Shown here piece by piece: positions 48,265 through 63,951 of a stretch of DNA of 64,000 bases; within the stretch, counting starts at the first letter, position 1; each line of letters opens with the position of its first letter. The stretch is from Sphingopyxis sp. H115. Its GTDB lineage: Bacteria > Pseudomonadota > Alphaproteobacteria > Sphingomonadales > Sphingomonadaceae. Where the stretch lies: contig NZ_LNSA01000004.1 in the NCBI RefSeq assembly GCF_001468465.1, forward strand, positions 1 through 64,000, read 5' to 3'. The notes below the pieces were generated by a model. It did no database searches. It had not been told where the DNA came from and saw nothing but the letters and a program-made list of their open reading frames with translations. Position numbers and translations under genes: made by a program.

Positions 48265-51200
48265 CTAGCCCGCGCGACTTCGCTGCTCGTCGGCGAAGCG
48301 CCGTGCCCAGCAGAGACCGTTGACGAGCTCCATCTCCGTAATCGTATGGCAGGGAATTTCGAGCAGCCGCGGGTTCGCATAGATCACTGCGAGACAGCGG
48401 GCGCGGCTGATTGCGACGTTGAGCCGGTTGCGACTGTAAAGAAATTCGATGTTGCGCGGCAGGTCGTCGCCACTCGACGTCGCCATGGAAACCAGCACAA
48501 CGGCCGCCTCCTGGCCTTGGAACTTATCGACCGTGCCCACGCGCGCGCCCTCCGGGAGCACGCGCTTGAGCAGCTCGACCTGCATATTATAAGGGCTGAC
48601 GACGAGAATATCGTCGCGGCAGATCTCATGTTCGACGCCTTTATTGTCACGCCAGCGCTGTCCGAGGAGCGCCCTGTAGGTCCGCTCGACGCGCTCGGCC
48701 TCGGCTGGCGACCGCTGGGTGCAGCCGATCGTATCGACGGGCACGAAGCGCAGGCCCGCCGCCGCAATCGCTTCGGGGTCGGACGAGGGATCGGCGAGGA
48801 TCTGCTGAGCCTTCGTCTCCTCGGTCGAACGGAGACGTCCCTCATAGACGGCGGCCGAGACGAACCCGCAAAGATCGGGATGCATGCGGCGAGTTTCGGA
48901 AAGGAAAATGCCGCGATCCGGTGGGACCGTCGCATGGCCCTTAAGCAGATGCTCGAGCGCCGACACGCCGCTGCCGCGCGGGTGGCTGCCTTGGATCGGC
49001 TGCGATAGCTGCATCTGGTCGCCGATCAGAATGATGTTGCGCGCCGCGACTCCCATCGCCACCGCGTTGGCGAGGCCGACTTGTCCCGCCTCGTCGACGA
49101 ACAGATAGTCGAAGGCCTGGTCGTGCTCGTCGCGCGCGAAGAGCCATGCGGTGCCGGCCACAAGCCGGTAGGACCCAGTCACCGCCTCGTTCTTGAGCGT
49201 GTCCTCAATCCACCCGCCGGTCCCGAGCATCTGATCCTCGCGGCTGCTCTTCTTGATCGCCGTGCAGCGGAATCCCCGCTCGGCACCGAGCGTTTCGATC
49301 TCGCGCAGGAGCTGGTTGATCGCTTTGTGGCCGTTCGAAGCGACGCCGACCCGCATCCCCCGCTCGAGAAGCGCGACGATCGCCCGCGACGCCGTATAGG
49401 TCTTGCCAGCGCCGGGCGGCCCCTGGATCAGCAGGTGACTGCGGTCGAGCGCGAGAAGCGCATCTACCGTCGCTGCGAGCGTATCGGTCCCGTTCCCGAC
49501 GATACTCTGGCCCGCTTTCCGCCCGGAAAGACGCGGCAGTTCGCCGCGCAGGATCGACCCCACGGCAGCATAATGCTCCTCGTGCCCGTCGCGCACTGCC
49601 TCGGCATAGCGATAGACCGCAGCGCGAAGTTCCCTGTCGCCGACGGGGCCCGGCGGAATCAACGACGTTCCGGCCTCGACCGGGCTGCGGCTCGGGCCGA
49701 TCTTGAGCTCGATCGTCCGGGCATCGTCGTCGATGGCGACAACATCGCCCGCGGGTTCGAGCGTGCCGGCGCGTTTAGGCTTATCGCCGATCTTGAGCTT
49801 GAAGTCCTGTGCGGGGAACCGGAAGCTGTGGATCATCGACTTCTTTTCGGGGCGCGGCGCAACGTCGGGATTGGCTTCGAGCCCGGCCATGCACTCGGCA
49901 TCTTCGAGAAGCTGGATATAGGGCAGATCCTGCCGCGAGAAGACCGCCCACCAAGCGGGCTTGCTTTCCCGGCGGTGGAACTCGAGGAGGTCGACGAGAA
50001 GCTGTCGCCATGGCTCTCGGGCATGATCCCCCGCAAGCAGCGCCAGCGACATGGCCGCGACCCGTTCTTCGGCCTCTGCCCGCTCCGCTGCCTGCTTGGC
50101 GTCATCCTCTCCCGGCTCCCATTCCGCCCAAGCGAGGCCTGCGGGACGCATCCCTACAAGCCAGTCGCGGCATTGCAGCGTGGAGCTGCAGTCGATTCGG
50201 TTATAGTCGGCGATGTCCTCGAGGAGCTTCGGCTCGTCGAGACGGCGCCAGCGCTCGTATATAACGATACTGTCGCCCGCGGTTGTCACTTCGCCCTCAC
50301 GCGCTTCGGCGAGATAGAATTTTTCCATATTCTTAATCGAATAAGCGGGCTCCGAAGTGCGTACCGCTTCGCGCACAACGCGATAAAGATCGACGAGCCG
50401 GTGCTGGCGAAGAAAATCATCGACCGCGGCCTCGCGCGTTCCGTGCAGCATCGCGAGACGTTTGAGCGCCGATTCCTCATAGGACGCATAATGATAGATG
50501 TGCGCGCGGGGATAGCGCGCGAGCCGCGCGGTCATAAAATCGACCGCGTCCTGAAAGGCCGCTTTTTCCTGCTCGCGGTCATGTGCCCAGAAGGCATGGA
50601 AGTTCTCTCGGCCGCCGTCGACGGTCACTACCCCGAAAAGATATTCGAGCCCGCCTTCGAACAGTGGATCGCCCTCCATATCAAAGAACATGTCGCCCGC
50701 ATCGGGGCGGGGCAGGCGGGCGAGCCCGCGGCCTGGCTCGACCTCGAGACGCTCAACCTGGCGCTCGCCCGTCGCACGCTGGTGCGCTTGGAGCCGTGCC
50801 TGTTCCCGCAGACGCCAGAGGGTTTCGGGCTGGATGCCCTCGACCCGGGTGCCCTGGGGCATCGCCGCGAGAGCAAGGAGATCGCCGATCCCGGCGCTCG
50901 TCAGCGCTTCGGCCTGACCGCGACCGAGCCCGGCGACAAGGCTGAGGTGATGCGCGGCATCCCACTCGGCATGGCAGGTCTCGGCCCAGTGGCAGTAACT
51001 GCAATGGCCGCACGGCGCGCTCGCCGAGACTGCCGGCGGTGCACCGGCGAAGTCGAGGAAGCGCGCGCGTGCGAATTCGAAATAATGGATGATCGCATCG
51101 ACGCGGACGCTTGCAATGCTGCCGTCGCCGAGGACAACATGCATGCGCTCGGGCATCAGGCCCTGCTCGCGCGCTAGGATATCCGAATAGATGCACATCT

Positions 51201-51639
51201 GGATGAGATGCTTGGGCTTTGCCGATCTCGCGAGCTTGGTGTCGGCGACTTCGTAGGAATGGTCGCCGAGCAGGTCCGATTTGCGGTCGACCTTGAGGAG
51301 GAAATCCGAATAGCCCTGCCAGGGCCCCTCGAGAAAGGCGCCCTGATAGATGACGTCGGCGCCGGATCGCAGCGCGGCGCGGGTCCGTTCGGCCTTAGCC
51401 TCGATGCCGTCTTCGCCATCGATCTCGACGACTGTCCGGCCTTCGGCTTTAAGCCGTTCGAGATAGGCGCGCTCGTGCGCGATCCCCATCTCTTGGAGGA
51501 GCTTCGTCTGCTCGTTGTCGGGCGCGAACACCACTGGCGTGTCGAGGCGACCGAGATCGAGCATGGTCGCGTGCATGCAGCCCATGAAATTGACGAGATC
51601 GCTCGCCGAAAAGAGCGTGCCGCCGCCATGCTTCTGCAT
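48265..51639 (-). CDS. TM0106/RecB-like nuclease fused to an SF1-type helicase
   Basis: This is a 1124-residue protein. The N-terminal RecB/Cas4-type nuclease (about 10-230) has the metal-ligand block YEVADTK. Its Fe-S cysteines are C21 (FMGCMH) and CGHCSYCHWAETC, as in AddB/Cas4. Next (about 300-500) is an RNase-H-like 3'-5' exonuclease region (DMFFDMEGDP, YHYASYEESAL). The C-terminal part is a DNA2/UPF1-type SF1 helicase, Walker A GPPGAGKT (K746) and Walker B FVDEAGQ. The family is poorly known and often occurs in defence-gene neighbourhoods. It follows the DUF6527 gene by 62 bases on the same strand, so it may be the last gene of the Ubl operon. The ATG has a GGGAGAGAG site. Confidence 0.85.
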   Translation of the reverse strand: MQKHGGGTLFSASDLVNFMGCMHATMLDLGRLDTPVVFAPDNEQTKLLQEMGIAHERAYLERLKAEGRTVVEIDGEDGIEAKAERTRAALRSGADVIYQGAFLEGPWQGYSDFLLKVDRKSDLLGDHSYEVADTKLARSAKPKHLIQMCIYSDILAREQGLMPERMHVVLGDGSIASVRVDAIIHYFEFARARFLDFAGAPPAVSASAPCGHCSYCHWAETCHAEWDAAHHLSLVAGLGRGQAEALTSAGIGDLLALAAMPQGTRVEGIQPETLWRLREQARLQAHQRATGERQVERLEVEPGRGLARLPRPDAGDMFFDMEGDPLFEGGLEYLFGVVTVDGGRENFHAFWAHDREQEKAAFQDAVDFMTARLARYPRAHIYHYASYEESALKRLAMLHGTREAAVDDFLRQHRLVDLYRVVREAVRTSEPAYSIKNMEKFYLAEAREGEVTTAGDSIVIYERWRRLDEPKLLEDIADYNRIDCSSTLQCRDWLVGMRPAGLAWAEWEPGEDDAKQAAERAEAEERVAAMSLALLAGDHAREPWRQLLVDLLEFHRRESKPAWWAVFSRQDLPYIQLLEDAECMAGLEANPDVAPRPEKKSMIHSFRFPAQDFKLKIGDKPKRAGTLEPAGDVVAIDDDARTIELKIGPSRSPVEAGTSLIPPGPVGDRELRAAVYRYAEAVRDGHEEHYAAVGSILRGELPRLSGRKAGQSIVGNGTDTLAATVDALLALDRSHLLIQGPPGAGKTYTASRAIVALLERGMRVGVASNGHKAINQLLREIETLGAERGFRCTAIKKSSREDQMLGTGGWIEDTLKNEAVTGSYRLVAGTAWLFARDEHDQAFDYLFVDEAGQVGLANAVAMGVAARNIILIGDQMQLSQPIQGSHPRGSGVSALEHLLKGHATVPPDRGIFLSETRRMHPDLCGFVSAAVYEGRLRSTEETKAQQILADPSSDPEAIAAAGLRFVPVDTIGCTQRSPAEAERVERTYRALLGQRWRDNKGVEHEICRDDILVVSPYNMQVELLKRVLPEGARVGTVDKFQGQEAAVVLVSMATSSGDDLPRNIEFLYSRNRLNVAISRARCLAVIYANPRLLEIPCHTITEMELVNGLCWARRFADEQRSRAG

Positions 51640-51701: not shown

Positions 51702-52169
51702 TCAGGTCCGGCCGAACCATCGCGCGACCCGGTGGCGGATCCCGTCAAAGCAGGAGCGCGGCGGTGCGGCGCGGACAGTCGTCTCCGAAACGGCGCTATC
51801 GGCCTCTTGGGCTGGCTTCATCGCCGGCGCCGCGCGGGACTGTTTGCGCGCGAGGTCGAGCGCCCGACCCGCCGCGATCTGCTTGTCGGTCCACGCCCCT
51901 GCCCAGCGAATCTGGCCTTTGTCGATGATATAATGTGAGCGACAGGGCAGACTCCAATTCCCCACCGATGGCCAGACCGAGATCGTCTCGCCGTCATAGC
52001 GCAGCGACCAGTCGAGCGGCGTCAAGGGCAGCACGACCTCGCCGCCGCAGCCGCACGCGCAGCCATGGATCATCGAGCCATATTCAAGCGAGACATAAAG
52101 GATGCCCGGCTCGATCGTGTCGGGCATCGTTTCGACGAAGCGCGGATCGAGCTGCTTGACCCGGCTCAC
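51702..52169 (-). CDS. DUF6527 family protein of the ubiquitin-like operon
   Basis: This is a 155-residue protein. A compact N-terminal domain (about 1-95) has a metal-binding-type cluster: C37, C39 and C41 (CACGCGG), then C76 and H79 (PCRSHYII) and a tail W in RWAG. These are hallmarks of DUF6527, which is found with multi-ubiquitin and E1-like genes. The C-terminal 60 residues are low-complexity and Arg-rich. The chemical role is unknown; a peptidase or metal-binding adaptor are possibilities. The GTG start overlaps the E1 stop by 4 bases (GTGA). Confidence 0.82.
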   Translation of the reverse strand: MSRVKQLDPRFVETMPDTIEPGILYVSLEYGSMIHGCACGCGGEVVLPLTPLDWSLRYDGETISVWPSVGNWSLPCRSHYIIDKGQIRWAGAWTDKQIAAGRALDLARKQSRAAPAMKPAQEADSAVSETTVRAAPPRSCFDGIRHRVARWFGRT

Positions 52170-53362
52170 GCCGCCTCTCCGCGTCGATCCTCGTTCAGCA
52201 GATGATTGCCGTCGAGCGTGAACAGCGAAAAATGCTCATCCTCGAGATCGGCATAAAAACCGCGAAGGCGCTTCCACCGGATTACCGCGAAAGCGGCATT
52301 GGCCATGTTGAGATCGGCAACCTGGATGTTGCGCGCATATAGATCGTCGAGTCCCGCGCCTTCGAGCGGAATACGCCCCTTCGTACGCACCTGCTCGCGC
52401 ATCCCGGGGGTGCTCGTGGTGACACGTAGCTGCCCGACGAGCGCGCCGTCGACGAGATGCAGCCCCATGCCGACATCGATGAAGGGCAAATCGCGGCGCT
52501 CAAGCTCGGCGATGATCGCCGCCTTCGCTTCGCCGGCATCGAGGCAGAGAAACACGAAGCTCGCACTGCCTAAAAGGTCGAGGTTGCTCGGGCAGAGCCG
52601 GACCGCATGCGGCACGATATGGCGGTGCATCTGCGAATAGATGGCGGCGAGATAATCGACCTTCTTCGGCCGTTCGCGCAGTGTATCGAGCGCCGCCGCG
52701 CCCGGCGACCGGAAGGCATTATGCTGGAGGAAGTCGTCGTCGTCGAAAAGATCGATGCGCTCGACTGGAGTCTTGGCGATCTGGTCGAGCACATAGGAAC
52801 CGGTCCCGCCAAGACCGATGATCGCGACCCGCTCGCCGACCAGCTTCTGCGTCACCTCGCCGATCCCGGCGCGCGACGTCGCCGTGTCGAGATAGACAAA
52901 AGGTGAAAGATCGTCGTCGTTCGCGACGACGCGGCGCGTTCGCGCGGTCGCTTCAGGATCGATCGCCGCAGCTTCATTGGCGAGGATGGCAGCGTAGGTT
53001 GTCATCTTTTCGTGATAGTCGGCATAATGGCCAACTGCGGGCTTGCTAGAGAAACTATGGTCGATCACCAGCCCCTCGCCGAGCGGTTGCCGGGCGCTGC
53101 TGTTGATGATCCGGGCGAGCGGGTGCCCCCGGACATCGCAAGGCGTTTCGCCGGCGAACATCGCGACATGCGTTTTCGGGCGCTGGGTGCGATCGCCGGC
53201 CAGAGTTAGCTCCGAGACGAGCTTGCCGCGCGCAACAAGCCCTCCCGGCGTCACATAGGGAATGTTGGACAGGACGAGATGGCCGGCCTCGACGGCCACC
53301 TCATAGCCTTCCTCCTGCAGGCGGAGGAGGTCGGGATTACGACTTATCAGTTGCTGTGACAT
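52166..53362 (-). CDS. E1-like ThiF-family adenylyltransferase with N-terminal E2-like/DUF6791-type domain
   Basis: This is a 398-residue protein. The C-terminal half (about 175-398) is an E1/ThiF fold: ATP loop G183-L-G-G-T-G-S189, Asp cluster 207-210, Arg finger R218, Lys 234 and the Mg-site Asp 275 in FLCLDAGEAK. The N-terminal 170 residues form a separate domain (THVAMFAGETPCDV, KMTTYAAILA) probably of DUF6791 type, predicted as E2-like. The only Cys are C75, C257 and C273, so no Cys lies in the loop after the Asp where E1 enzymes carry the catalytic one; it is Ser/Thr-rich (T315-T318). It overlaps the Ubl gene by 26 bases and the DUF6527 gene by 4. Confidence 0.85.
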   Translation of the reverse strand: MSQQLISRNPDLLRLQEEGYEVAVEAGHLVLSNIPYVTPGGLVARGKLVSELTLAGDRTQRPKTHVAMFAGETPCDVRGHPLARIINSSARQPLGEGLVIDHSFSSKPAVGHYADYHEKMTTYAAILANEAAAIDPEATARTRRVVANDDDLSPFVYLDTATSRAGIGEVTQKLVGERVAIIGLGGTGSYVLDQIAKTPVERIDLFDDDDFLQHNAFRSPGAAALDTLRERPKKVDYLAAIYSQMHRHIVPHAVRLCPSNLDLLGSASFVFLCLDAGEAKAAIIAELERRDLPFIDVGMGLHLVDGALVGQLRVTTSTPGMREQVRTKGRIPLEGAGLDDLYARNIQVADLNMANAAFAVIRWKRLRGFYADLEDEHFSLFTLDGNHLLNEDRRGEAA

Positions 53363-53999
53363 GGAACGTCATCCCTTCGATCAAATGGACGCTCTGGCCG
53401 GGCAGGAGCGAGCCTTCGGGGTGGGGTTTGGGGCCTTTGCGATAGCTCACGGTGAAGCAGACGTTGGGGCCGCTCGGCGCCGAGGCGAACGCCAGCACGA
53501 GCAACTCCTCGAAGCTGATTGTGCCCGTCTTCACTTGATGCTTGCGCGCATTGACGATGATCGTGATCGTCTTCGGTGCAGCCTTGCGCGAGCGGATATG
53601 CTCGACGCCCTTGCCCGAAAGAGGGACCGCGCTCCCACGCTCGATCAGGCGATCGGCATCGGAATCGAGGTAGAGGTCGTGATCGTCCGGGATGCCCGCG
53701 ATGTCGCGAACCTCCGCTTCACCGATTTCATCGGCACCCCATTCCCAACCGCGTTCGTTTACCGTGAACATGTTTGTATGATCGGCTTCGAAGGTACGAA
53801 AGCGAAGACGTTTGCCCTTCTCAAGCTGGACGGCCTCCTCGAGCCCGACCGACTGGGCGATTCCGCCGTCGATCTGGATGAGCACAAAAGCGCTCGCGGG
53901 ATTACGGCCGGCCGAAACGCGCACCGCGCGCCCGTCAATGAGGTCATCGGTGGCACGAATGACGGCGCCATCGACTTGATATTCAAAATAGGCGGACAT
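53337..53999 (-). CDS. Multi-ubiquitin domain protein (three Ubl-like repeats)
   Basis: This is a 220-residue protein with three beta-grasp ubiquitin-like repeats: about 2-71, 76-138 and 143-217. Each starts with a short extended strand and ends with a pattern like G-x-x-V-x-L-x-x-G-x-x-F. It is the Multi_ubiq (PF14452-like) protein that belongs with E1-like and DUF6527 genes. The C-terminus is ATDKS, so there is no Gly-Gly tail. The start ATG 53999 has GGAG 7 bases upstream; an earlier Met at 54032 is less likely. It is the first gene of the operon. Confidence 0.85.
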   Translation of the reverse strand: MSAYFEYQVDGAVIRATDDLIDGRAVRVSAGRNPASAFVLIQIDGGIAQSVGLEEAVQLEKGKRLRFRTFEADHTNMFTVNERGWEWGADEIGEAEVRDIAGIPDDHDLYLDSDADRLIERGSAVPLSGKGVEHIRSRKAAPKTITIIVNARKHQVKTGTISFEELLVLAFASAPSGPNVCFTVSYRKGPKPHPEGSLLPGQSVHLIEGMTFHVTATDKS

Positions 54000-54151
54000 C
54001 AGGCTTCTCCAATTTGCCCCCGAAAGCAACACGCCCGGGACTCTTGCGAGCGAGTCTCAAATGGACTAGAACGTCAATCGAGTCTCGCTGTGGACTGTCT
54101 ATATCGAGACTTAATACACTTGCAAGTCCAAATCTGGAGAAGGGGAAAATT
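54000..54151. promoter_or_regulatory. Divergent promoter region between the Ubl operon and the RES-Xre pair
   Basis: The region has CGAGTCTCAAATGGACT (54051-54067) and CGAGTCTCGCTGTGGACT (54079-54096) as imperfect direct repeats about 28 bases apart, plus GAGACT at 54106-54111, which pairs with AGTCTC. These are sensible operator sites for the Xre antitoxin. A GGAGAAGGGG site precedes the antitoxin ATG. No clear consensus promoter could be fixed. Confidence 0.55.
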
Positions 54152-54541
54152 ATGACTGCGCTATCCGTCGCCTGGGAGGGCGGGGGACGATCAGCGATTC
54201 CCGTAGCGCTGGACGTCTTCACCCCACTCGCGGAAGCTTGGGGCCTTTCGACCGACGAGCAGATGCGTTTGCTAGGATCGCCGCCGCGTTCGACATTCTT
54301 CAAATGGAAGAAAGACGGAGGCACACTTCCCCGCGATACTATCGAGCGAATTTCGAACCTGCTTGCGATATGGAAGGCATTGGAGATATTATTCACCGAT
54401 CCTGCGGAATCGGAGGGGTGGGTGAGAAAACCCAATGCGTTTTTCGGCGGGGCGTCAGCGCTTGACGTCATGCTGGACGAAGGAAACTTCTTCGACATTG
54501 TTCGAGTAAGGCAATATCTCGATGCACAGCGAGGCGGCTAA
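54152..54541 (+). CDS. Xre/MbcA/ParS-type antitoxin of a RES toxin-antitoxin pair
   Basis: This is a 129-residue protein. The N-terminal part (about 20-90) is an Xre-like HTH (PLAEAWGLSTDEQMRLLG...STFFKWKK). The C-terminal part (about 95-129; KPNAFFGGASALDVML, RQYLDAQRGG) is the DUF2384/toxin-binding segment common to the antitoxins of RES toxins. It is divergent from the Ubl operon. Its end overlaps the toxin start by 20 bases. It probably binds the repeats in the divergent region and silences its own operon. Confidence 0.88.
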   Translation: MTALSVAWEGGGRSAIPVALDVFTPLAEAWGLSTDEQMRLLGSPPRSTFFKWKKDGGTLPRDTIERISNLLAIWKALEILFTDPAESEGWVRKPNAFFGGASALDVMLDEGNFFDIVRVRQYLDAQRGG

Positions 54542-55241
54542 ACTGCCCATCATCGCGATCGATGATGACAAGTTCCACAACATCATTCCGTCGCGTTTTC
54601 CGACGGTGCGCCTCTACGAGCGCATTGCGGACGGACGCGACGAGCTTTTTGCCAAGATCGAGGAAATCACGAACCCGCGTGTTCGTGAAAAGGATCGGCT
54701 GACCCGTGGCATGGCGGCTGTCGACCAAGACCAGCCGCGTTTCAAAAACTGGAATCACGCACCGTTTGTTTATCCTAATCCCGAGGGAAGCCGTTTTTTC
54801 GGTGCGAACCGCAATGTTCTGGAACTGGCTGGCTGCCTTCAGACCGCTCTTGCCATCTCAGTCGCTAAACGCGAGCTCTTCCTCTCTCGTACTGCCCAAG
54901 CCGCGACCTATGTAGAAATGCGTCAATTCGTGCGGCCCGTCCGCGGTACGTTCATCGACGCGCGCGGATGGGATGGTCAGGATGATCGCGAACGCTGCCT
55001 CGCGCTCGGCAAGGAAGTTGACGAGGCGGGTCGTGACGGGCTGCTCTTCAGTCCCCGCGAACGCCGCTCGGCGACCGGAATCACGGTCCTCAAACCCGAA
55101 TGCCTCGGCCGCCCAATCCAAGCCGAGCATTTCAAATATATGTGGAACGGCGAACGGATCACGCTGCTCTACGCGTTTGGTACTGGCCAGGAATATGATC
55201 CGCAGGACCTTTCCGAGCAGGCCCAGATCCTCGCCGCCTGA
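54522..55241 (+). CDS. RES family NAD+ phosphorylase-type toxin
   Basis: This is a 239-residue protein recognised as a RES-domain toxin by its partner and by fold signs. Arg/Tyr in RLYERI near the start match the active-site Arg region; GSRFFGANRNV and AISVAKREL follow, then VEMRQF. RES toxins degrade NAD+ and stall cell growth. The catalytic Arg, Glu and Ser could not be fixed with certainty from memory. It starts 20 bases before the antitoxin stop. The gene may act as an abortive-infection or stability module on the mobile region. Confidence 0.8.
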   Translation: MHSEAAKLPIIAIDDDKFHNIIPSRFPTVRLYERIADGRDELFAKIEEITNPRVREKDRLTRGMAAVDQDQPRFKNWNHAPFVYPNPEGSRFFGANRNVLELAGCLQTALAISVAKRELFLSRTAQAATYVEMRQFVRPVRGTFIDARGWDGQDDRERCLALGKEVDEAGRDGLLFSPRERRSATGITVLKPECLGRPIQAEHFKYMWNGERITLLYAFGTGQEYDPQDLSEQAQILAA

Positions 55242-55255
55242 GACACATCAGACGA

Positions 55256-55657
55256 TCACGCGCGAATTCGCAGATCTTCAAGTACCCGGAAGTCGCCGTC
55301 GCCCGGGCGCTTCACTTTCCAGAAGCGCCATCCGTTTACGTTACCTTTGGTGATGGCGCAGGCTGCGTCTGAAGGGCTGTTTCGGCGAATGCCATCTTCG
55401 CCGATCCACGCGCCCTCCTTGATTGCTGCGGCGTAGGTACGTCCCTTATAGGTCACCCGGAACTCGGTGCCATCGGGCAGGAAGACGCCTTTGAACTCGC
55501 ACCCCGCGAGCCCGGTTCCACTCGCGGTGAGAGGAACTTCCGCCCTAGCGTCGAGGTGCAGCAGCTTGCGGAGCACGTCGTTAATCGTTGTGGCCTCGTT
55601 GGGCCGCATGACGGTGAGAGCCTTATACACCTCAAAATCCACATCGATAACTGCCAC
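55256..55657 (-). CDS. Small RAMA/DUF4357-like domain protein
   Basis: This is a 133-residue protein. An N-terminal segment resembles the SeqA dimerisation end (DFEVYKALTVMRPNEATTIN then DVLRKLLHL). The C-terminal half (about 68-115) has the RAMA/DUF4357-type pattern GRTYAAAIKEGAWIG ... SPSDAACAI ... NGWRFWKV, often joined to or located near DNA methyltransferases. The function is unknown; DNA-methylation-related binding is likely from context. It is divergent from the PLD nuclease. Confidence 0.72.
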   Translation of the reverse strand: MAVIDVDFEVYKALTVMRPNEATTINDVLRKLLHLDARAEVPLTASGTGLAGCEFKGVFLPDGTEFRVTYKGRTYAAAIKEGAWIGEDGIRRNSPSDAACAITKGNVNGWRFWKVKRPGDGDFRVLEDLRIRA

Positions 55658-55686
55658 CCGAACCTCCTCAAGCTATCGAATCACGT

Positions 55687-55713
55687 AATAGCAGAAATAG
55701 TAGAAATAGCGAA
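55687..55713. repeat. Three 9-bp tandem repeats upstream of the PLD nuclease gene
   Basis: AATAGCAGA, AATAGTAGA and AATAGCGAA are three consecutive 9-bp units in an AT-rich part of the divergent region between the RAMA-like gene and the PLD nuclease. Confidence 0.75.
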
Positions 55714-55821
55714 AGTGAATTTTATTCGAACGTGCAGCGTGGCACGAGCCTGCCTTGCCCCTAAGCGGCGACCCATTGCGCTCGCTGCGTCTTTGAATGT
55801 AGTCCGGGTGCAGGGGGAACC

Positions 55822-56979
55822 ATGTCGCGTGAACTGATTCTGCAAGGTCTGACTAAACGGACCCATGCGGACGCCTTGAAAGAAATGTTCGGCGGAAGCG
55901 TATCGCGCGCGATCATGAGCGTAGCGTTTGTCTCGGAAAGCGGCGTCGAATTGGTGGAGCCATTCGTGCAGCCGCACGCCGCGAACGTTTTGGTATTCGC
56001 TGGCATTCGCAACGAAATCACTTCGGCGCAGGCGTTGAAGAAATTACTGGCGGCCGGCGTATCGTTATTTGTCGTAGATACAGGCTCGCGCTCACTGCTT
56101 TTCCACCCGAAGCTCTATTACGTCCGGGGCGACGATGGCGGGAGACTGTCGATCGGCAGTGCCAACCTGACGCTCGGCGGCCTGAACAACAATGTCGAAG
56201 CCGGGGTTTTGCTGCGCCTTGCCCCGGATGCCGATGTAGACATCGCCTTTGCAACCGAGCTCGAGGAGTTGTTCGACGGACTGGCTGCGGCGCACCCCGA
56301 GAATGTGTTTTCGATTCCAGATAATGCGGCAGTGGATGCACTGCTCGCTGCCGGTCGCGTGATCGACGAAACGCTGCGACCACCTCCCAGGCCTGCAACC
56401 GTCGCCAAACCGGGTAGCGCTGATCCCACTCCGCGAATGAAAATGGCGCCGCCGCCGATCTACAAGAAGAAGGCGGCCGCTGCCCCGGCAGCGCCCGTTG
56501 CTGCGCCTCTTGCTGCGCCCCCTCAAGTTGCTGCGGCTGCAACGGTTGAGCCGGAATTGCTGCTCGTGTGGGAGAGCAAGCCCCTGACCCGCCGGTCGCT
56601 TGGCATACCGACCGGACCGAACTCGAATCCGACAGGGTCGACTACCCTCGGTTCGGGTACCTTCGATCATATCGATCGGGTGACCTATTTCCGCAATCAG
56701 CTTTTCGGTCATTTGCTCTGGGCGAAGAAGGGAACGATCGAAACGGCCGAACAGGCTTTCGACTTAGTCATCAAAGGGGTCTTGCTTGGCACATTCCCCC
56801 TCACTCTGCGCCACAGCCTGACACGCGCCGCCGCGGCGCCTGTCGACCATAATTCGCCATCGGGACTAAGCTGGAATCAGGCGCGACCCTTAGTAGCTCG
56901 GGAAGACTTGCTGGGGCGTACAATGCGAATTTGGCAGTCGACTGTGGACAATTCGAAATTCCGCATCGACATCGATTAA
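55822..56979 (+). CDS. PLD-family nuclease, probable restriction endonuclease
   Basis: This is a 385-residue protein. The N-terminal part (about 1-180) has a single HKD-type catalytic motif: H95, K97 (FHPKLYY) and GSANLTLGG (Ser/Asn). It resembles the catalytic half of BfiI/NgoFVII-type endonucleases, which work as dimers without a metal. A Pro/Ala/Lys linker (about 190-250) joins a C-terminal domain (about 255-385) that may contact DNA. It overlaps the convergent DNA methyltransferase by 4 bases, which strongly suggests a restriction-modification pair. The exact sequence cut is unknown. Confidence 0.75.
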   Translation: MSRELILQGLTKRTHADALKEMFGGSVSRAIMSVAFVSESGVELVEPFVQPHAANVLVFAGIRNEITSAQALKKLLAAGVSLFVVDTGSRSLLFHPKLYYVRGDDGGRLSIGSANLTLGGLNNNVEAGVLLRLAPDADVDIAFATELEELFDGLAAAHPENVFSIPDNAAVDALLAAGRVIDETLRPPPRPATVAKPGSADPTPRMKMAPPPIYKKKAAAAPAAPVAAPLAAPPQVAAAATVEPELLLVWESKPLTRRSLGIPTGPNSNPTGSTTLGSGTFDHIDRVTYFRNQLFGHLLWAKKGTIETAEQAFDLVIKGVLLGTFPLTLRHSLTRAAAAPVDHNSPSGLSWNQARPLVAREDLLGRTMRIWQSTVDNSKFRIDID

Positions 56980-58631
56980 ACCTTCGCCTCGGGCAGATCC
57001 TCGGTCGAGGTGCGTTGCCTGCGATCGCGCAGTTTCCGCCACCCTTCCAACGCACTCAGCTGGCTCGCTTTCGATATACCGAGCGCGCCGAGAACCTGCT
57101 TGCCCTGCTTCTCCAGCGTCTCGTGCGTGGGCCGATTCCGGATCGAGGCGTCGAGTGCTTCAAGGTCGATGTCGGCATCCTTGGGGAGAGGGATCAGTAG
57201 GCGCTGGATCTCGGATGGGATCAGCTCGAGCACGCCTCCCCCATAGTGGCGACCCTCAAGTTCGGCGCTGAGCGCGGTCATTGGGTTGAGAAAGCAGCCG
57301 ACCAGTCGTTCGCCCGCTATGTCGCGCGTGCGAATGCGGTAGGCGGTGTCCGTCGTGTAGGCGCCTACCCTATTGAGGATCAGGCGCGGCGTGTCGTGTG
57401 ATCGCTTGAGCATGCCCACCTCGGTCGCATAGACTGACGGCACCTTGAACCAAGGCGCGCGGGTCCGGCATTTGAACCGCGTATGAAGCATTTCGCGTTC
57501 GCCGCTCTCGATGTAACGCTTAGGCCCGCTTTGCATGCTCGCGGGGGCATCGTCGAACCAGAGGAAGTTCGTCGGACTTCCCTTCTCGGCATTGGCGGCA
57601 TGCTGCCGCTCGTCGTAGATCACGCCTGGACAATGCTCGCTGCGCCCGAACATCGGATGGGCATATTTGGCGAGGCCATAGGTTTCGACGGTCTCGTCGG
57701 ATACGAGGAAGAATTTGTTCGCACCGGTGACGATGCCGACGTCGACGCGCGCGATATCGTCGAAGCGATGAACGTCGGGATGGGCCTCGAGCTCGTCGAA
57801 AAGGTCTCGCGTTTCGAGATCGAGCAGCGCGCGGGTCCATTTACCTGCGACGGTCTTACCGTTAATCGCCTGCGGTGCGGCGAACAGCTCCGCCGGCGCG
57901 CGGCGAATGAACTCGCGGCCACGAACCGGCACCATGCCCAGCCCCTCGGCCTTGTCGCTAGGGCCGTGGCGCTTCTCAGCCATGAGAATCACGGCACCCT
58001 GGAGAGTGCCGTCGAACCAGAGCTCTTCGGGATCGATGATGACGAGGCGTCGGCACTCCTTGCCCAGATAGCTGCGCAGCGACTGGGCATGGGTGACGTG
58101 GATGATTTCGGCGGGGACAACCATCGCGAGCCGCCCGCCGGGGCGCAACAGCGACATCGACGCGAGGATGAACGGAACCCAGGCATTTGTGTGCTTCGTG
58201 AACTTGAGATCGAGCTCGTCAAAAATGCGTGCTGCGCGGGTCTGGAATGTCGGCGGAAGGAACTGGTACCGGACGAAGGGGGGATTACCGACGACCGCGT
58301 CGAAGCGCTTGCCACCTTTTCCCATATTGTCGATGGCCCAAGCTAGGAAGTCCTCGGACCGGATATCCGCATTGGGGAGGCCGAGGCTTTTCGCTCTCTG
58401 CGCGGCTTTGCGCGCTTCAGTCGGATCTAGTTCGAACCCCGTTATCTTAGCGCTTTTGAAACTTCCTACATCTGCCAAAGCTTGAAGGAACGCACCGTCG
58501 CCGCAGCTTGGTTCCAGAATATGATCGGGATCGAGATCCTTCACCCACCGCGAAATATACGCGGCAAGATCCAACGGTGTATAGTAACCGCCGCGCAGCT
58601 TTTGCTCGGTCTGATCTTCGATGAATTTCAC
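56976..58631 (-). CDS. N6-adenine DNA methyltransferase
   Basis: This is a 551-residue m6A methyltransferase. The SAM motif I (LEPSCGDGAFL, about 39-49) and the catalytic NPPF (116-119, in VVGNPPFVRY) are clear. The C-terminal half is the target recognition part of the Eco57I/HsdM-like form. The GTG start has GGAGG 4 bases upstream. It is convergent with the PLD nuclease (4-base overlap), so it should protect the host from that enzyme. The methylated sequence is unknown. Confidence 0.9.
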   Translation of the reverse strand: MKFIEDQTEQKLRGGYYTPLDLAAYISRWVKDLDPDHILEPSCGDGAFLQALADVGSFKSAKITGFELDPTEARKAAQRAKSLGLPNADIRSEDFLAWAIDNMGKGGKRFDAVVGNPPFVRYQFLPPTFQTRAARIFDELDLKFTKHTNAWVPFILASMSLLRPGGRLAMVVPAEIIHVTHAQSLRSYLGKECRRLVIIDPEELWFDGTLQGAVILMAEKRHGPSDKAEGLGMVPVRGREFIRRAPAELFAAPQAINGKTVAGKWTRALLDLETRDLFDELEAHPDVHRFDDIARVDVGIVTGANKFFLVSDETVETYGLAKYAHPMFGRSEHCPGVIYDERQHAANAEKGSPTNFLWFDDAPASMQSGPKRYIESGEREMLHTRFKCRTRAPWFKVPSVYATEVGMLKRSHDTPRLILNRVGAYTTDTAYRIRTRDIAGERLVGCFLNPMTALSAELEGRHYGGGVLELIPSEIQRLLIPLPKDADIDLEALDASIRNRPTHETLEKQGKQVLGALGISKASQLSALEGWRKLRDRRQRTSTEDLPEAKV

Positions 58632-58962: not shown

Positions 58963-59472
58963 TTAGTCCCACCGCGCAGTCGCCCGCCGGCACCGAGCCA
59001 AGGCTCGCATCATATGATACTCGACCCCCTTTTCGCCGACACCAATATGTTCCGAAATCTGCCGATAGGACATGCCCTTTAAACGATGCATCAGGAATAT
59101 CCGCCGCGTCCGTCGCGGCAGGGCAAGTAGCGCGCGCCGATATGCCGCTCGAAGCTCCCGCCCCTCAATCTTCCATTCCTGTTCCGGCGGGAGAGGGGCA
59201 TCGCGCGCTTCGTCGAGTGGATAAAGCACGCACCCTTTCCGGTGCCACGTCCGCGCCCGGTTGATCACCAGATTGCGAGCCGTCCGCGTCAAATAGCCAT
59301 TGGGATTTTCGAGCCTATCGAAAGCCCCGCTTCGCAGCACACAGGTAAATGCCTCCTGCACGAGGTCCGGAGCTTCATCACGCCCAACTTTCCTCCGGAA
59401 GAAATGGAACATCCGATCGTGCTGCGCCCGGTAGAAGGCGTCGAATGTGGGGTAGGGTCCAGCGGTAGTCAT
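58963..59472 (-). CDS. ECF-type RNA polymerase sigma factor
   Basis: This is a 169-residue sigma factor. Region 2 (FHFFRRKVGRDEAPDLVQEAF...TRTARNLVINRAR) and region 4 (LPRRTRRIFLMHRLKGMSYRQISEHIGVGEKGVEYHM) are the two parts, as in FecI-like ECF factors. There is no FecR or other anti-sigma gene beside it. It overlaps the upstream nucleotidyltransferase by 4 bases (ATGA), so the two are co-translated. The regulon is unknown. Confidence 0.9.
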   Translation of the reverse strand: MTTAGPYPTFDAFYRAQHDRMFHFFRRKVGRDEAPDLVQEAFTCVLRSGAFDRLENPNGYLTRTARNLVINRARTWHRKGCVLYPLDEARDAPLPPEQEWKIEGRELRAAYRRALLALPRRTRRIFLMHRLKGMSYRQISEHIGVGEKGVEYHMMRALARCRRATARWD

Positions 59473-59960
59473 AGCCGGTCTCCCCGGCGCTCACCCATGG
59501 GCAGCGACGCATCGCGCGACGCACGATAGAGGGCGATCCCGCCCTCGATCCGGTCGAGGATGAAAGTGTCGCGCTCCGCCTTCGCGGTACGAATGTCGGA
59601 CTTCGAGTAAACCTCGATATCGACCGCGCAGCGATTGCCCAGCTCGCGGTCAATGGTTGCACGCGCGCGCCGCCAACAACGCTCGTCGGTGTAGAGCGGA
59701 TGATTGATGACGACCCAGAATTCATAATCGGAAAATTCGATCGTCCGGCTGTCTTCGTACCAGGATCGCCGTGCGTAGGGACCGATGAGGATGATCCGCT
59801 TGATCCGTCCCGGCTCGGGCGCTTGGATCTGCGACGGGTCGAACAGGCCGCGCAGGATGCGCGTGATGCGCTCGATTTCGCGCTGCTTGCGCCGGATGAG
59901 ATGGCCAACGCGCGCCATCACGACCTCGCGCGCGTAAACGTCGGTGGTTGGGGGTGTCAT
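59469..59960 (-). CDS. Degenerate nucleotidyltransferase-like protein coupled to the ECF sigma gene
   Basis: This is a 163-residue protein resembling the MNT (minimal nucleotidyltransferase) fold. LIGPYARRSW takes the place of the GSxxxGxx loop, with Pro61 instead of Ser. SDYE (78-80) replaces the SDYD pair, and VDIEVYSK supplies a third acidic strand (D114). The fold is kept but the catalytic Ser is lost. It has no HEPN domain. It is coupled to the ECF sigma gene (4-base overlap) and so may modify or sense something for that factor (inference). The ATG at 59960 is preferred; a Met at 59918 is possible. Confidence 0.62.
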   Translation of the reverse strand: MTPPTTDVYAREVVMARVGHLIRRKQREIERITRILRGLFDPSQIQAPEPGRIKRIILIGPYARRSWYEDSRTIEFSDYEFWVVINHPLYTDERCWRRARATIDRELGNRCAVDIEVYSKSDIRTAKAERDTFILDRIEGGIALYRASRDASLPMGERRGDRL

Positions 59961-60179
59961 TTGCAGCTCGTACCGCGGCGGTCCGCGCGATTGCGCGCGG
60001 ATGGGCAAGCGGTGTTCGCTGTGGTGCCGCCGAAGCGGCGATCAGCAACTGTCCGACACGCGGCCGGACCTACATGATGCCTGGCAGGATTATCCCCGGA
60101 ATGGCCGCCAGTCGTTCCATTCCGTGCCGACGACTATACCAGAATCCGGGAGTCCCGGCAAGCGGCGGCACTCAAACGC

Positions 60180-61100
60180 CTATTGGCGCGCCGCCGTCTC
60201 GAGCTCGGCGATCTTGTCCAAGCAGACCTGGTGGACCACGCGGCCGAGTTCCTCGACGCGATCGGTAAGCCAGTACAGCTCTTCTTCGCTAATTTTGTAG
60301 TGCTTCGCGTATCTGGCCTTCGTGTAAGCTTCCTTCAGCTTCTGGAACATCGCTCGCTCGCGATGCGTCGCTTCGGGCCAGATGCCGTAGAGACGACGGT
60401 CAAGTCCTTCGGCGAGTGACCGCAGGAACGCGAGGTTATGATTGTACGGCGTGTAGAAGGTCAGGGTAAGCAATAAGCATCCGTAAAGACGTTCAGTCGC
60501 TTGGTGCAGTTGGAAAGCAGATTCCTTAAGTCTGCCGCGGCTACGCGCATATTTCGAGGTGTCGAGAAAACCGGCTGCGCTCGGCATCCATTCCTCAAAA
60601 TATTCTCGTGCCGTTTCGAGCGCCTGTTCCGGCGTCTTTGGCTTCGGCGTAGCCAGCTCTCGGTCATCGGCTTCATAAAGTGCGATCCCGTCCTTCGCGA
60701 CCTCCATGAAGAAGACGCGACCATGCGAGAGCCCGTCATTCACCTCATGCAGGCTGTGGACGATGAAGTTGACCGGCGTGTGGAGCGTCTTCTCGATCGT
60801 GTAGGCGCGAATGAGACGTTCCTCGGCGGTCGCCCAATAGGCGGCGCGGTCGGTCATCTCCTTCTGGCTGACGATGACGAGAATGTCATAGTCCGATTTA
60901 TACTGGTTCGCCGACAGCGGCGCATCGACCCAGTCGCCGCGCGCGTGGCTGCCGAACAGGATAATCTTGAGGATACGCGCACCCTTGCGCGGTCCCGTCG
61001 CATTCTCGGTCGCGCCCCGAAACTCCTCGAAGATCGTCTCGACGATCCGTTCGAGTTCGCGCTGCTTGGCGGCGGGAAGATGGGTAAGATCGGTACGCAT
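60180..61100 (-). CDS. MNT-HEPN fused nucleotidyltransferase (toxin-antitoxin-like)
   Basis: This is a 306-residue protein. The N-terminal nucleotidyltransferase has the full motif GSHARGDW (50-57) and SDYD (69-72). The C-terminal half (about 170-290) is a HEPN-type four-helix domain (LHQATERLYGCL..., with RYAKHY near 270). In classic pairs the MNT protein adenylylates a HEPN RNase toxin to silence it; here the two are joined in one chain. The Met at 61100 is chosen. A weaker open frame runs to 61295. It precedes the relaxase on the same strand. Confidence 0.82.
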   Translation of the reverse strand: MRTDLTHLPAAKQRELERIVETIFEEFRGATENATGPRKGARILKIILFGSHARGDWVDAPLSANQYKSDYDILVIVSQKEMTDRAAYWATAEERLIRAYTIEKTLHTPVNFIVHSLHEVNDGLSHGRVFFMEVAKDGIALYEADDRELATPKPKTPEQALETAREYFEEWMPSAAGFLDTSKYARSRGRLKESAFQLHQATERLYGCLLLTLTFYTPYNHNLAFLRSLAEGLDRRLYGIWPEATHRERAMFQKLKEAYTKARYAKHYKISEEELYWLTDRVEELGRVVHQVCLDKIAELETAARQ

Positions 61101-61140
61101 GTAGCGGAATCTTCGGGAAGATCGCATGCTTTGGCAAGAG

Positions 61141-63951
61141 CTAAAGCCCCATGCCGGGCAGCGAGGCCGCCGCTTGCGAGACCGCCGCGCTGATCGCCTT
61201 GTCGGCGGCGGGCGCGGCGATGGCGGCTTGCACCATGGCGGCCCCCGCCGCAGGTGCCTGTGAAAGTGCAGTCTGGACGACCCCGGCGCGTGCATTGATC
61301 GCCGATGTCAGTTTCGCGCGATCATCAGTAAGGATTGTCGCCGACTCCTTCGCGCGCGAAATGCCGACGTAGAAGCTTTTCTGGTCGACCAGATTGGTCG
61401 CCTTGCTGTCGGCGTGGATGATCACATGATCGGCGGTGCGCCCCTGCGCGGCGAAGGCGGTGTCGACATAGGCATGGGCGATATGCCGGTCGCGCGCCGC
61501 GTCGAGGTCGAGAGTCTGCACCTGACCGCGAGCGCTAAGCACCGTCGCCGTCCGCGCCTTCTCGTCGATCGCGGTGACTTCGCCGCGCGCCCCATTGATC
61601 CGCCCGGCCTCGCGATCATTGCGGGTAAAGCGGATGCTGTCGCCGGTCCTGACGTCCATATTCTGGGGCGCGAACACCTGCACCTTGCCGGCGCCCCATT
61701 GGCGAAGCCGCCAATCGACCTCACGTCCGTCTTCGGACCTCAGCGCAATGGCGGCCTTGGCTGGATCGACCGCCTCGACACGATAGGCTTCGCCCCGCGC
61801 GACACCCTTGTCGGCATAATCGCTGGTGAACCGCACAACGTCGCCCCGGTCGTAGCTGAGCGGGTCACGTGCCTCAGCGCGGGTGAGCCCCTTGTTGACG
61901 AGGCTTTCGATGGCGACGGCGGGACCGGAAAGCGCGCCCGACCTGACAAGCGCCGTGCGGATGTCGGCCGTCAGCACATCGCGGCCCTCGCGCGAGGGCT
62001 CGATGACAAGCGTGCGGGACCGCGCCGCCTTGTCGAGTTCGGCATAGCGTTCGGCGATGGCGGCGAAGCGGTCTGCGCGGTCGGCATGTTCGACGATCTG
62101 GCCGCCGCCGCGATCGAGCGCGGCGAGCGCCTTCCTCGCATCGCCCTCAATCGACGCGAGCACCGCTTCTTTGGTCGCCGCGTTGCTCTGCCGGACGATC
62201 TCGCCGAGCGTGGTGGTTTCCATGCCGGCGCCTTGGAGTTGCGCGAATGCCGCGCCGGCCTCGACCGATCCGAGCTGCTTAACATCACCCACAAGGATGA
62301 CGCGCGCATCATGCTGCTCGGCCAGATCGAACAGACGCGCGGTATCGCGCGCCGACAAGAGCGAAGCCTCATCGACGATCCATGCGACCGGCTGACCGGG
62401 CGCCGAAACTTCCGGCACGAGCAAATGACGCGCCACAGTATCGCCGCGCGTGCCGAGCGCCTCGCCAAGCGTCATCGCCGCCGATGCGGTCGGCGCCAGC
62501 GCGACAACCGTTACGCCGCGTGCTTCGGCTTCGCGCGCGAAGGTGGCGAGCACGGTCGTGGTCTTCGCCGTTCCGGCATAACCCTGCACTGCGGTGACCC
62601 GATTGCGGCTGGTAAGGAGCTGTTCGGTCGCGGCCTTCTGGTCAGCATTCCAGCCAAAGCCGGACCGCTCCGCCTTTGCAGCCGCACCTGCTACTGCCTT
62701 GGCGGCGGCTAGCGGTGATGCGATGGGAGCGAACGCGCCGCGCCCGTGCGTTTCAATCCGAAGCAGTGTCTTCTCGGCGGCTATATTCTGCCGCGTCGTG
62801 AACCCGGCGAACGCGGCGCCGCGCCGATCGAGGAAAGTACGGTCGACCAACTCGCCCTCCTTTGCAGCCCGCCCTATCGCTTCGCCGATCTCGGCATAGC
62901 CGACCTTCCCAAGGCCAACCCGCCCGGCTTCCTCGTGGAGCGACGCGACCGAGAACACCGACTGCCGCTCGCCAAGCTTGTCGGCGGCATGAGCGACGGC
63001 GCGATCGGCGATCGATGGATAGGGAAGATGAATCCCGTCCGCCGCTCTGGCTTGGGCCTCGCGCACCAACGCCAGTCGGATCTCTGCATCGAATCCCGCC
63101 CGGTCGGCGGTCTCGCGCCAGTCGGCGACAAGCGCGCCATGATCGGTCGCGACCTTCACTTGCCGAGTATCGAGCGCGGCGACCTGCTTCTCAGCGGCGC
63201 TGGCTTCTTCGCGCGAAGTTCCGCGCTCGCCGAGTGCCGCTTCGATCTCGGCGCTGCGCGTGCTGAACGCCGCCATCACATCCGCCGACACGCCATTGAT
63301 CTCGAACATCGATTCCTTGCCCGGTGCAATCTCATAGCCGAGCTCGCGGACCTTCAAGGCCAGCTCCTGCCGATAGATGGCGCCGATCTGCTTCTGGAGC
63401 TGATAGATCGCGCGTGGTTCGAGACTCCGCCACGAGCCATCCTCGCCCTGCGTCGCATTCATCATGACATTGTGCGTGTGTAGCTGCGGGTCCTGCGCTC
63501 GGCTCGTCCCGTGCTGAAAGCTCGCGATAACGAGATTGCCGGTGGCTTCGCGGGTCACGCTGCCGCCATGCCGAACGCGGGTCGCGGCCATATGCGCCTC
63601 AACATGCGCGAGCGCGGTCTTCACCGCTTGGCTATGCGCTCCGATCAACCGCCGGTCGCCCGCAACCTCGGCCATGATCGACACCGACTTGGGCGCACTC
63701 AGCGTCACATCCCAGCCGGGGCGATGTTCGAGATGACCGTCTCGGACCGTGCCGAGCTGCTGACCCGCGACCTTGCCATCGAGCAATTCCCGAAATCGGT
63801 CGCGATCGACATCGCCCGATAGTCCAAGTTCCTCGGCACCCTTGCCGTGCCATTCGGACGGCGACAGCCCGCCCTCGGCGTAATAATCGTCAGCCTCATA
63901 ATAGCTGCTCGCCTGCGCTGAGTTCGTCAGCGCCGATACCGACGCGACCAT
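61141..63951 (-). CDS. MobF family conjugative relaxase/helicase
   Basis: This is a 936-residue relaxase of the TrwC/TraI type. The N-terminal relaxase part (about 1-300) starts with tyrosines (YYEADDYYAEGG) and has the HUH-type pair H-T-H in DPQLHTHNVMMN. The C-terminal part is an SF1 helicase with Walker A GYAGTAKTTT, WIVDEASLL as Walker B, and VGDVKQLGSVE. It nicks oriT and drives transfer of a conjugative element. The ATG 63951 overlaps the stop of an upstream gene (TGATG), so it is coupled to it. It gives the strongest evidence that the region is conjugative. Confidence 0.93.
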   Translation of the reverse strand: MVASVSALTNSAQASSYYEADDYYAEGGLSPSEWHGKGAEELGLSGDVDRDRFRELLDGKVAGQQLGTVRDGHLEHRPGWDVTLSAPKSVSIMAEVAGDRRLIGAHSQAVKTALAHVEAHMAATRVRHGGSVTREATGNLVIASFQHGTSRAQDPQLHTHNVMMNATQGEDGSWRSLEPRAIYQLQKQIGAIYRQELALKVRELGYEIAPGKESMFEINGVSADVMAAFSTRSAEIEAALGERGTSREEASAAEKQVAALDTRQVKVATDHGALVADWRETADRAGFDAEIRLALVREAQARAADGIHLPYPSIADRAVAHAADKLGERQSVFSVASLHEEAGRVGLGKVGYAEIGEAIGRAAKEGELVDRTFLDRRGAAFAGFTTRQNIAAEKTLLRIETHGRGAFAPIASPLAAAKAVAGAAAKAERSGFGWNADQKAATEQLLTSRNRVTAVQGYAGTAKTTTVLATFAREAEARGVTVVALAPTASAAMTLGEALGTRGDTVARHLLVPEVSAPGQPVAWIVDEASLLSARDTARLFDLAEQHDARVILVGDVKQLGSVEAGAAFAQLQGAGMETTTLGEIVRQSNAATKEAVLASIEGDARKALAALDRGGGQIVEHADRADRFAAIAERYAELDKAARSRTLVIEPSREGRDVLTADIRTALVRSGALSGPAVAIESLVNKGLTRAEARDPLSYDRGDVVRFTSDYADKGVARGEAYRVEAVDPAKAAIALRSEDGREVDWRLRQWGAGKVQVFAPQNMDVRTGDSIRFTRNDREAGRINGARGEVTAIDEKARTATVLSARGQVQTLDLDAARDRHIAHAYVDTAFAAQGRTADHVIIHADSKATNLVDQKSFYVGISRAKESATILTDDRAKLTSAINARAGVVQTALSQAPAAGAAMVQAAIAAPAADKAISAAVSQAAASLPGMGL

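Follow-up and report, generated by a model that had tools for sequence, protein, structure and literature searches.

Results

The three genes at positions 51702-53999 of the Sphingopyxis sp. H115 window (the whole 64,000-nucleotide stretch of DNA that was analyzed) do form an intact operon, one of an already known type, encoding a ubiquitin-like protein (Ubl), an E1-like protein and a DUF6527 protein. The reading that we favor, tentatively, is that of a JAB-less Bub-like system that would attach a serine-ended Ubl to protein targets without an E1 cysteine and under stress control.

A conserved three-gene operon

All three genes lie on the reverse strand. The Ubl gene (53337-53999, ATG at 53999) encodes 220 residues with three beta-grasp repeats, matched by Pfam Multi_ubiq in three stretches (E = 3.1e-27). 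The E1-like gene (52166-53362, 398 residues) encodes DUF6791 (Pfam, E = 5.8e-53) and ThiF (E = 8.4e-12) and belongs to NCBI family PRK06153, with the NCBIfam model PRK06153.1-4 scoring 504 bits against a cut-off of 352, and the third gene (51702-52169, GTG start) encodes 155 residues matched by Pfam DUF6527 (E = 1.9e-23). These assignments bear out the triad of three-repeat Ubl, E1-type protein and DUF6527 protein that had been proposed in the sequence-only reading, and the overlaps given there, 26 bases between the Ubl and E1-like genes (53337-53362) and 4 bases between the E1-like and DUF6527 genes (52166-52169), are exact. In PADLOC the E1-like protein gave only partial E1-E2 matches, with no model for the Ubl or the DUF6527 protein.

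Searching genome contigs with a profile built from four E1-like proteins gave 320 relatives, and the best 80 loci were retained; a profile of E1-like proteins matched 2 viral-contig loci. Among 95 loci with an E1-like gene, the Ubl gene is present in 92 and the DUF6527 gene in 91, with order and strand conserved, and for this reason the linkage of the triad exceeds chance. The three loci without a Ubl gene (L096, L099, L100) all begin at a contig edge. Two of the four loci without a DUF6527 gene (L006, L081) stop at one, and the other two (L033, L088) have no DUF6527 match in 7.9 and 5.7 kb downstream, respectively. The overlap itself is a conserved feature, since 86 of 88 distinct sequences have a start codon (ATG in 84, GTG in 2) exactly where a 26-base overlap requires it. 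If each E1-like gene is instead begun at its earliest possible start codon, 51 of 95 loci show a 26-base overlap, and nearly all remaining lengths reflect in-frame upstream starts.

The operon is widespread, with relatives in many phyla; the record titles name Proteobacteria, Nitrospira, Acidobacteria, Bacteroidota (Hymenobacter), Cyanobacteria and Akkermansia, among others. Of 60 related genomes, 7 have a DUF6791 match, and so do 8 of 398 genomes drawn from the phylum; both counts include the genome under study, and one other genome is counted in both. Among 72,556 plasmid records, 115 had a match to the E1-like protein, 40 of them conjugative and 43 mobilizable; among 50,697 phage records there were 0. 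Bub-like E1 relatives were also seen on haloarchaeal plasmids of Haloarcula, Halorubrum and Halobacterium (H61, H92 and H106).

An invariant serine at the Ubl C terminus

The last Ubl codons are T-D-K-S and stop (53337-53351). The terminal residue is serine in all 88 distinct Ubls, with a codon that is always TCN; T stands at position -4 in 86 (S in the other 2), K, Q or R at position -2 in all 88, and V at position -7 in 84. By an eye count from the last strand, the serine occupies the place of ubiquitin Gly76. A full-length relative of the Ubl family with the same TDKS end has been solved (PDB 9cd2, ZDHYS365 multi-ubiquitin domain protein). Since the codon is always TCN, the terminal serine may be held in place partly by the E1 frame that overlaps it; in L012, the sole locus in which the Ubl and E1-like genes do not overlap, the Ubl end TGQS retains the pattern. 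Of 92 loci, counted by first start, 34 encode a Ubl of at most 134 residues, 6 one of 135-195 residues and 52 a longer one; the Ubl thus comes both in a short form, probably with a single domain, and in a three-domain form.

Is the serine end tied to the absence of a JAB-type domain? Seven of the 17 Ubls from comparison operons also end in serine (five DDNS, two SS), 3 end in EG and 1 in FG, and the other 6 continue into an E2-type part, mostly after [ND]G or EG. The serine end is thus universal in the JAB-less branch yet also occurs outside it, and because it is the last residue in those seven Ubls it does not track JAB absence. Passages of Iyer 2006 (PMC1779556) describe the newly detected Ubls, except for Gly-ended ones, as having no highly conserved C-terminal residue, in contrast to the serine that ends 88 of 88 Ubls of JAB-less loci. 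No matching paper on the terminal serine was found in the library searched.

The E1-like protein and its DUF6791 domain

The ThiF-profile part of the E1-like protein (residues 170-299, 52466-52855) has an intact E1-type ATP site: G183, G185, G186, G188, D207, D209, H214, R218 and K234 are identical in all 89 distinct sequences, and D275 is Asp in 86 and Glu in 3. No cysteine is strongly conserved within this domain, its best column being C273 (65 of 89 distinct sequences), and C75 and C273 are the only cysteine columns above 70% in the whole protein. A JAB-type profile gave 0 matches in the listed ORFs of the 95 loci, with all 18 of its source sequences matching themselves; its putative JAB identity comes from Iyer 2006 and a weak Pfam Prok-JAB match under cut-off (E = 0.0065) in L103 only, not in L105. 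The operon had earlier been described as a Ubl activation system of eukaryote-like design. The first part holds as to compactness, an intact ATP site and a solved full-length Ubl relative, with adenylation being predicted from the ATP-site residues. The second part does not agree with a Ubl that ends in Ser rather than Gly-Gly, a ThiF domain without a strongly conserved Cys and no JAB-type domain found.

An alternative hypothesis, somewhat unlikely in our judgment, is a relay of the canonical type, in which DUF6791 (52883-53335) would be a true E2-like domain, C75 would carry the Ubl as a thioester and a lysine would receive it. The domain holds C75 within a conserved F-x-G-x-x-P-C-x-x-x-G stretch, as well as an F-S-x-K-P motif; C75 is Cys in 86 of 89 distinct sequences and could carry a thioester. 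The predicted order of helix, strands and helix in the model of the E1-like protein is a topology that we take to resemble the E2/RWD fold, and by eye both the succession of motifs and this order resemble E2-type proteins of Bub-like operons. However, C75 is replaced by His in L009 and L010 and by Tyr in L012, all of which have Ubl and DUF6527 genes. Moreover, the sequence comparisons do not uphold the E2-like label that DUF6791 had been given. Comparison by hhalign with the E2-type proteins of Bub-like operons was not significant (probabilities 3.6, 0.3 and 0.4%; the 3.6% alignment covers 27 columns with E = 0.012), whereas two subgroups of those E2-type proteins find each other at 97%. At E up to 1, a profile of E2-type proteins matched none of the E1-like ORFs and Pfam found no E2 family in the E1-like protein. 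The fold search with the E1-like model barely probed the DUF6791 part. No paper naming DUF6791 or DUF6527 was found in the library searched.

Structural matches of the ThiF part and the place of Tyr342

In the model of the E1-like protein (mean pLDDT 89.6), the ThiF part best matches Citrobacter BubCD, with Z = 24.1 and an rmsd of 2.2 over 218 residues. This lead is small, since ThiF, UBA5, SUMO E1 and MccB reach Z of 21-23, and PaaA also matches the domain. MccB activates a non-glycine C terminus. Such matches bear on a further hypothesis, which we consider unlikely, that the Ubl has no protein target and is a carrier or a self-assembling sensor, adenylated without being conjugated, in the manner of ThiF carriers or MccB peptides. 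The matches to ThiF, MccB and PaaA are in keeping with it, as is the title of Gong 2025, which is said to concern the oligomerization of bacterial Ubls. Against it, the top structural match is BubCD, although with a Z lead over ThiF of only 1.4, and the title of Ye 2026 reportedly describes the Bub pathway as protein conjugation.

Tyr342 (codon at 52337-52339) is invariant in 89 of 89 distinct E1-like sequences. PDB titles name the BubCD variants D104A and Y370F, and a Citrobacter freundii relative of BubCD has Tyr at residue 370 and Asp at residue 104. A BubCD-type Tyr was found by pattern in 17 of 18 E1s of Bub-like or Bil-like operons and by eye in the 18th (L117). By motif position, Tyr342 is a putative counterpart of BubCD Tyr370. 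The loop is shorter here, with 10 residues from the Tyr to a helix Asn against 13-15 by an eye count; no program aligned the E1-like protein and BubCD through the Tyr loop, and MAFFT did not place the Tyr of all E1s in a single column.

The DUF6527 protein

Across 84 distinct DUF6527 sequences, P16, H35, C37, C39, G40, C41, P67, S68, G70, C76, S78, H79 and Y80 are invariant, giving the motif C-x3-C...PS...C-x2-H, in which PS is P67-S68. Judged from this pattern, C37, C41, C76 and H79 probably form a zinc site; a role as a hydrolase via an S68-H79 pair is only suggestive. All 13 additional DUF6527 proteins, 8 of them from annotated plasmid loci and 5 from genome matches, have the PS and the His, and 12 have the Cys before the His. 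One DUF6527 protein, at 4380-4748 of L122, is without two of the four probable zinc ligands and keeps the PS and the His. For the model of the protein (mean pLDDT 85.6), Foldseek gave nothing below E = 0.001 and VIA-align 2 reached Z = 2.6 at best; the missing match is no evidence of a new fold. The spacing C37-x3-C41-x34-C76-x2-H79 comes near to the motif given for the metal-binding protein in a passage of Iyer 2006 (C-x3-C-x(35-38)-H-x2-C; PMC1779556), but with the last pair ordered C..H.

Exchangeable modules upstream of the operon

Upstream sequence of 2.8 kb or more before the E1-like gene was available for 70 loci, and 65 of these have a regulator- or stress-type module there. There are 34 loci of an ImmA/IrrE (M78) class, counted on the ImmA/IrrE gene alone and on either strand, 22 with a same-strand ImmA/IrrE-UvrD-PDDEXK protein, 5 with divergent Xre-RES, 4 with a CapK-like module and 5 others; one M78 representative scores as CapP. 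The divergent Xre-RES pair is found in the window and in L019, L025, L029 and L037. L018 has the Xre gene, with the RES side beyond the available sequence, and in L069 and L071 an Xre-RES pair lies downstream of the triad. HipA-type and HTH genes were observed upstream of the triad in six loci (L038, L046, L047, L050, L052, L065).

The ImmA/IrrE-UvrD-PDDEXK protein of L040 (3791-7183) is encoded on the same strand upstream of the triad, has a matching gene in 22 other loci and resembles the DRT RTasHel and GajB helicases in PADLOC. It could be a controller or a separate defense gene. Loci of this type also carry another two conserved genes, each in about 20 loci, and Pfam matches none of their representatives.

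In the window, the proposed controller is an Xre/MbcA/ParS-type antitoxin gene (54152-54541, forward strand), divergent from the operon, common to related loci and overlapping the gene of a RES-domain toxin (54522-55241, forward strand) that is one of three RES matches in the genome. Two palindromic operator-like sites of the form AGTCYN6RGACT, one exact and one with a mismatch, lie between the divergent starts at 54081-54111 and have one base in common. With at most one mismatch allowed, the six divergent-Xre loci have 12 copies of the pattern (8 exact) around the Ubl start, and 86 other loci have 3 (0 exact); 500 shuffles of the six loci, keeping base composition only, gave a mean of 0.24 and a maximum of 3. 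The pattern was written after five of the six loci had been viewed, and L018, with three sites, is the only independent check. Over the whole window it is not above chance (2 found, 2.48 expected), and the weight of the sites comes from their place and recurrence rather than from their window-wide frequency. PMC11535050 concerns a RES-type toxin and NAD depletion, and PMC12457610 and PMC12204516 concern Xre-RES and palindromes.

One possible extension, which we regard as rather improbable, is that the operon belongs to a separate Cys- and JAB-free branch with a Ser-ended Ubl and a Tyr oxyester, which in an alphaproteobacterial subgroup would be turned on when the RES antitoxin is lost, so that toxin and tagging are freed together. 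That the operon is mainly an extension of the adjacent Xre-RES toxin-antitoxin unit, a maintenance module, is very improbable: the divergent pair with its operator-like sites and the 83 of 115 plasmid records that are mobilizable or conjugative would suit it, but the pair stands at only 5 of 70 loci.

Genomic surroundings

A gene of the RNase_H_2/AAA helicase type (48265-51639, reverse strand) lies 62 bases downstream on the same strand. Its membership in the operon is doubtful; of the loci searched, L019 alone has a strong relative, and L039 has a weaker match. To the right of the triad, Xre-RES is followed by a protein whose RAMA/DUF4357 matches are sub-threshold, a PLD-domain protein and an Eco57I-type methyltransferase; further right lie a sigma-70-type factor, a HEPN protein and a TrwC relaxase. 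The neighborhood had been called a cluster of other defense genes, and some defense-type genes are indeed there, but the setting, with its TrwC relaxase, is that of a mobile element. The adjacent weak RAMA-type, PLD-domain and Eco57I-type methyltransferase genes (55256-58631) are perhaps a restriction-modification set. The HEPN-domain protein (60180-61295) has sub-threshold nucleotidyltransferase matches, and a 179-residue ORF, at 59469-60008 by length and place, scores as its relative (E = 1.3e-08).

The same genome contains a second polyUbl operon on contig C44 (L005, 7331-9796), with an HTH-type ORF upstream. It is Bil-like and differs from the triad in that two small genes separate the Ubl gene from that of a stand-alone ThiF protein. 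Our reading of these two genes is E2-like and JAB-like; Pfam found neither an E2 nor a JAB family in them.

Discussion

How would such an operon tag a target without an E1 cysteine? We infer adenylation, tyrosine chemistry, conjugation and regulation as the parts of a JAB-less Bub-like system. The ThiF domain would bind ATP and adenylate the C terminus of a Ubl that is apparently encoded in its final form. The activated Ubl would then be passed on without a ThiF Cys, likeliest via Tyr342 as an oxyester, or by direct attack of the acceptor; the Bub pathway is reported to use oxyester chemistry. DUF6791 and the zinc-type DUF6527 protein might position or choose the acceptor. Since no JAB-type peptidase is nearby, the modification is possibly long-lived, or it might be undone by another factor, possibly DUF6527. 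Expression would follow the stress-linked upstream module, here probably Xre-RES via the sites at 54081-54111.

If a Ser-ended Ubl indeed works with an E1 that has no conserved Cys, ubiquitin-type tagging would be possible without thioester chemistry. Candidate key residues are the terminal Ser of the Ubl, Tyr342 and C75 of the E1-like protein, and C37, C41, S68, C76 and H79 of the DUF6527 protein. The swapping of upstream modules (CapP-like, CapK-like, Xre-RES) hints at the kind of stress signal that possibly switches the operon on. In the library searched, no direct evidence of phage defense and no report of targets was found for the JAB-less subtype.

Among known systems, the Bil operon has E2, E1 and JAB proteins beside the Ubl. 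The triad shares its Ubl and ThiF-type proteins but differs in being three genes without a match to the JAB profile. The likeness to Bub goes further, to a Multi_ubiq Ubl, a DUF6527 gene, a conserved Tyr that by motif position may correspond, the E1 part whose model has BubCD as its top structural match (Z = 24.1), and ImmA/IrrE- or CapK-type genes, which lie upstream in many triad loci. A DUF6527 gene is annotated beside a BubCD relative in L121, and L120 has an unnamed gene of DUF6527 length in the DUF6527 position; in the incomplete tables of PLSDB, DUF6527 is annotated near a JAB-E1-type gene in 8 plasmid loci and not in 9. Unlike Citrobacter Bub (BubA, BubB, BubCD), the triad is without a JAB-type domain, DUF6791 standing in its place. 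No separate BubB-type gene was recognized in triad loci, and the E2-type profile found among the ORFs of the 95 loci one unrelated-looking ORF (E = 0.041). The ends of the Ubls differ as well, TDKS here against the Gly of VNNG at residue 229 in the C. freundii BubA relative; the deposited BubA construct 155-229 ends at the same residue number.

The closest correspondence is with Iyer 2006 (PMC1779556), where footnote b to Table row 6e lists a polyUbl, an E1 in which a "domain X" replaces JAB, and a metal-binding protein Y. The triad has this make-up: its Ubl fits the two or three tandem domains given there, and its E1 carries another domain where JAB would stand; domain X would be DUF6791 and Y would be DUF6527. 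The same source names mlr6139, a protein with three tandem Ub-like repeats, and its passages on the row 6e systems do not include control by Xre-RES. As far as that footnote goes, the evidence fits a gene set that is not new, having been catalogued in 2006 and as NCBI PRK06153.
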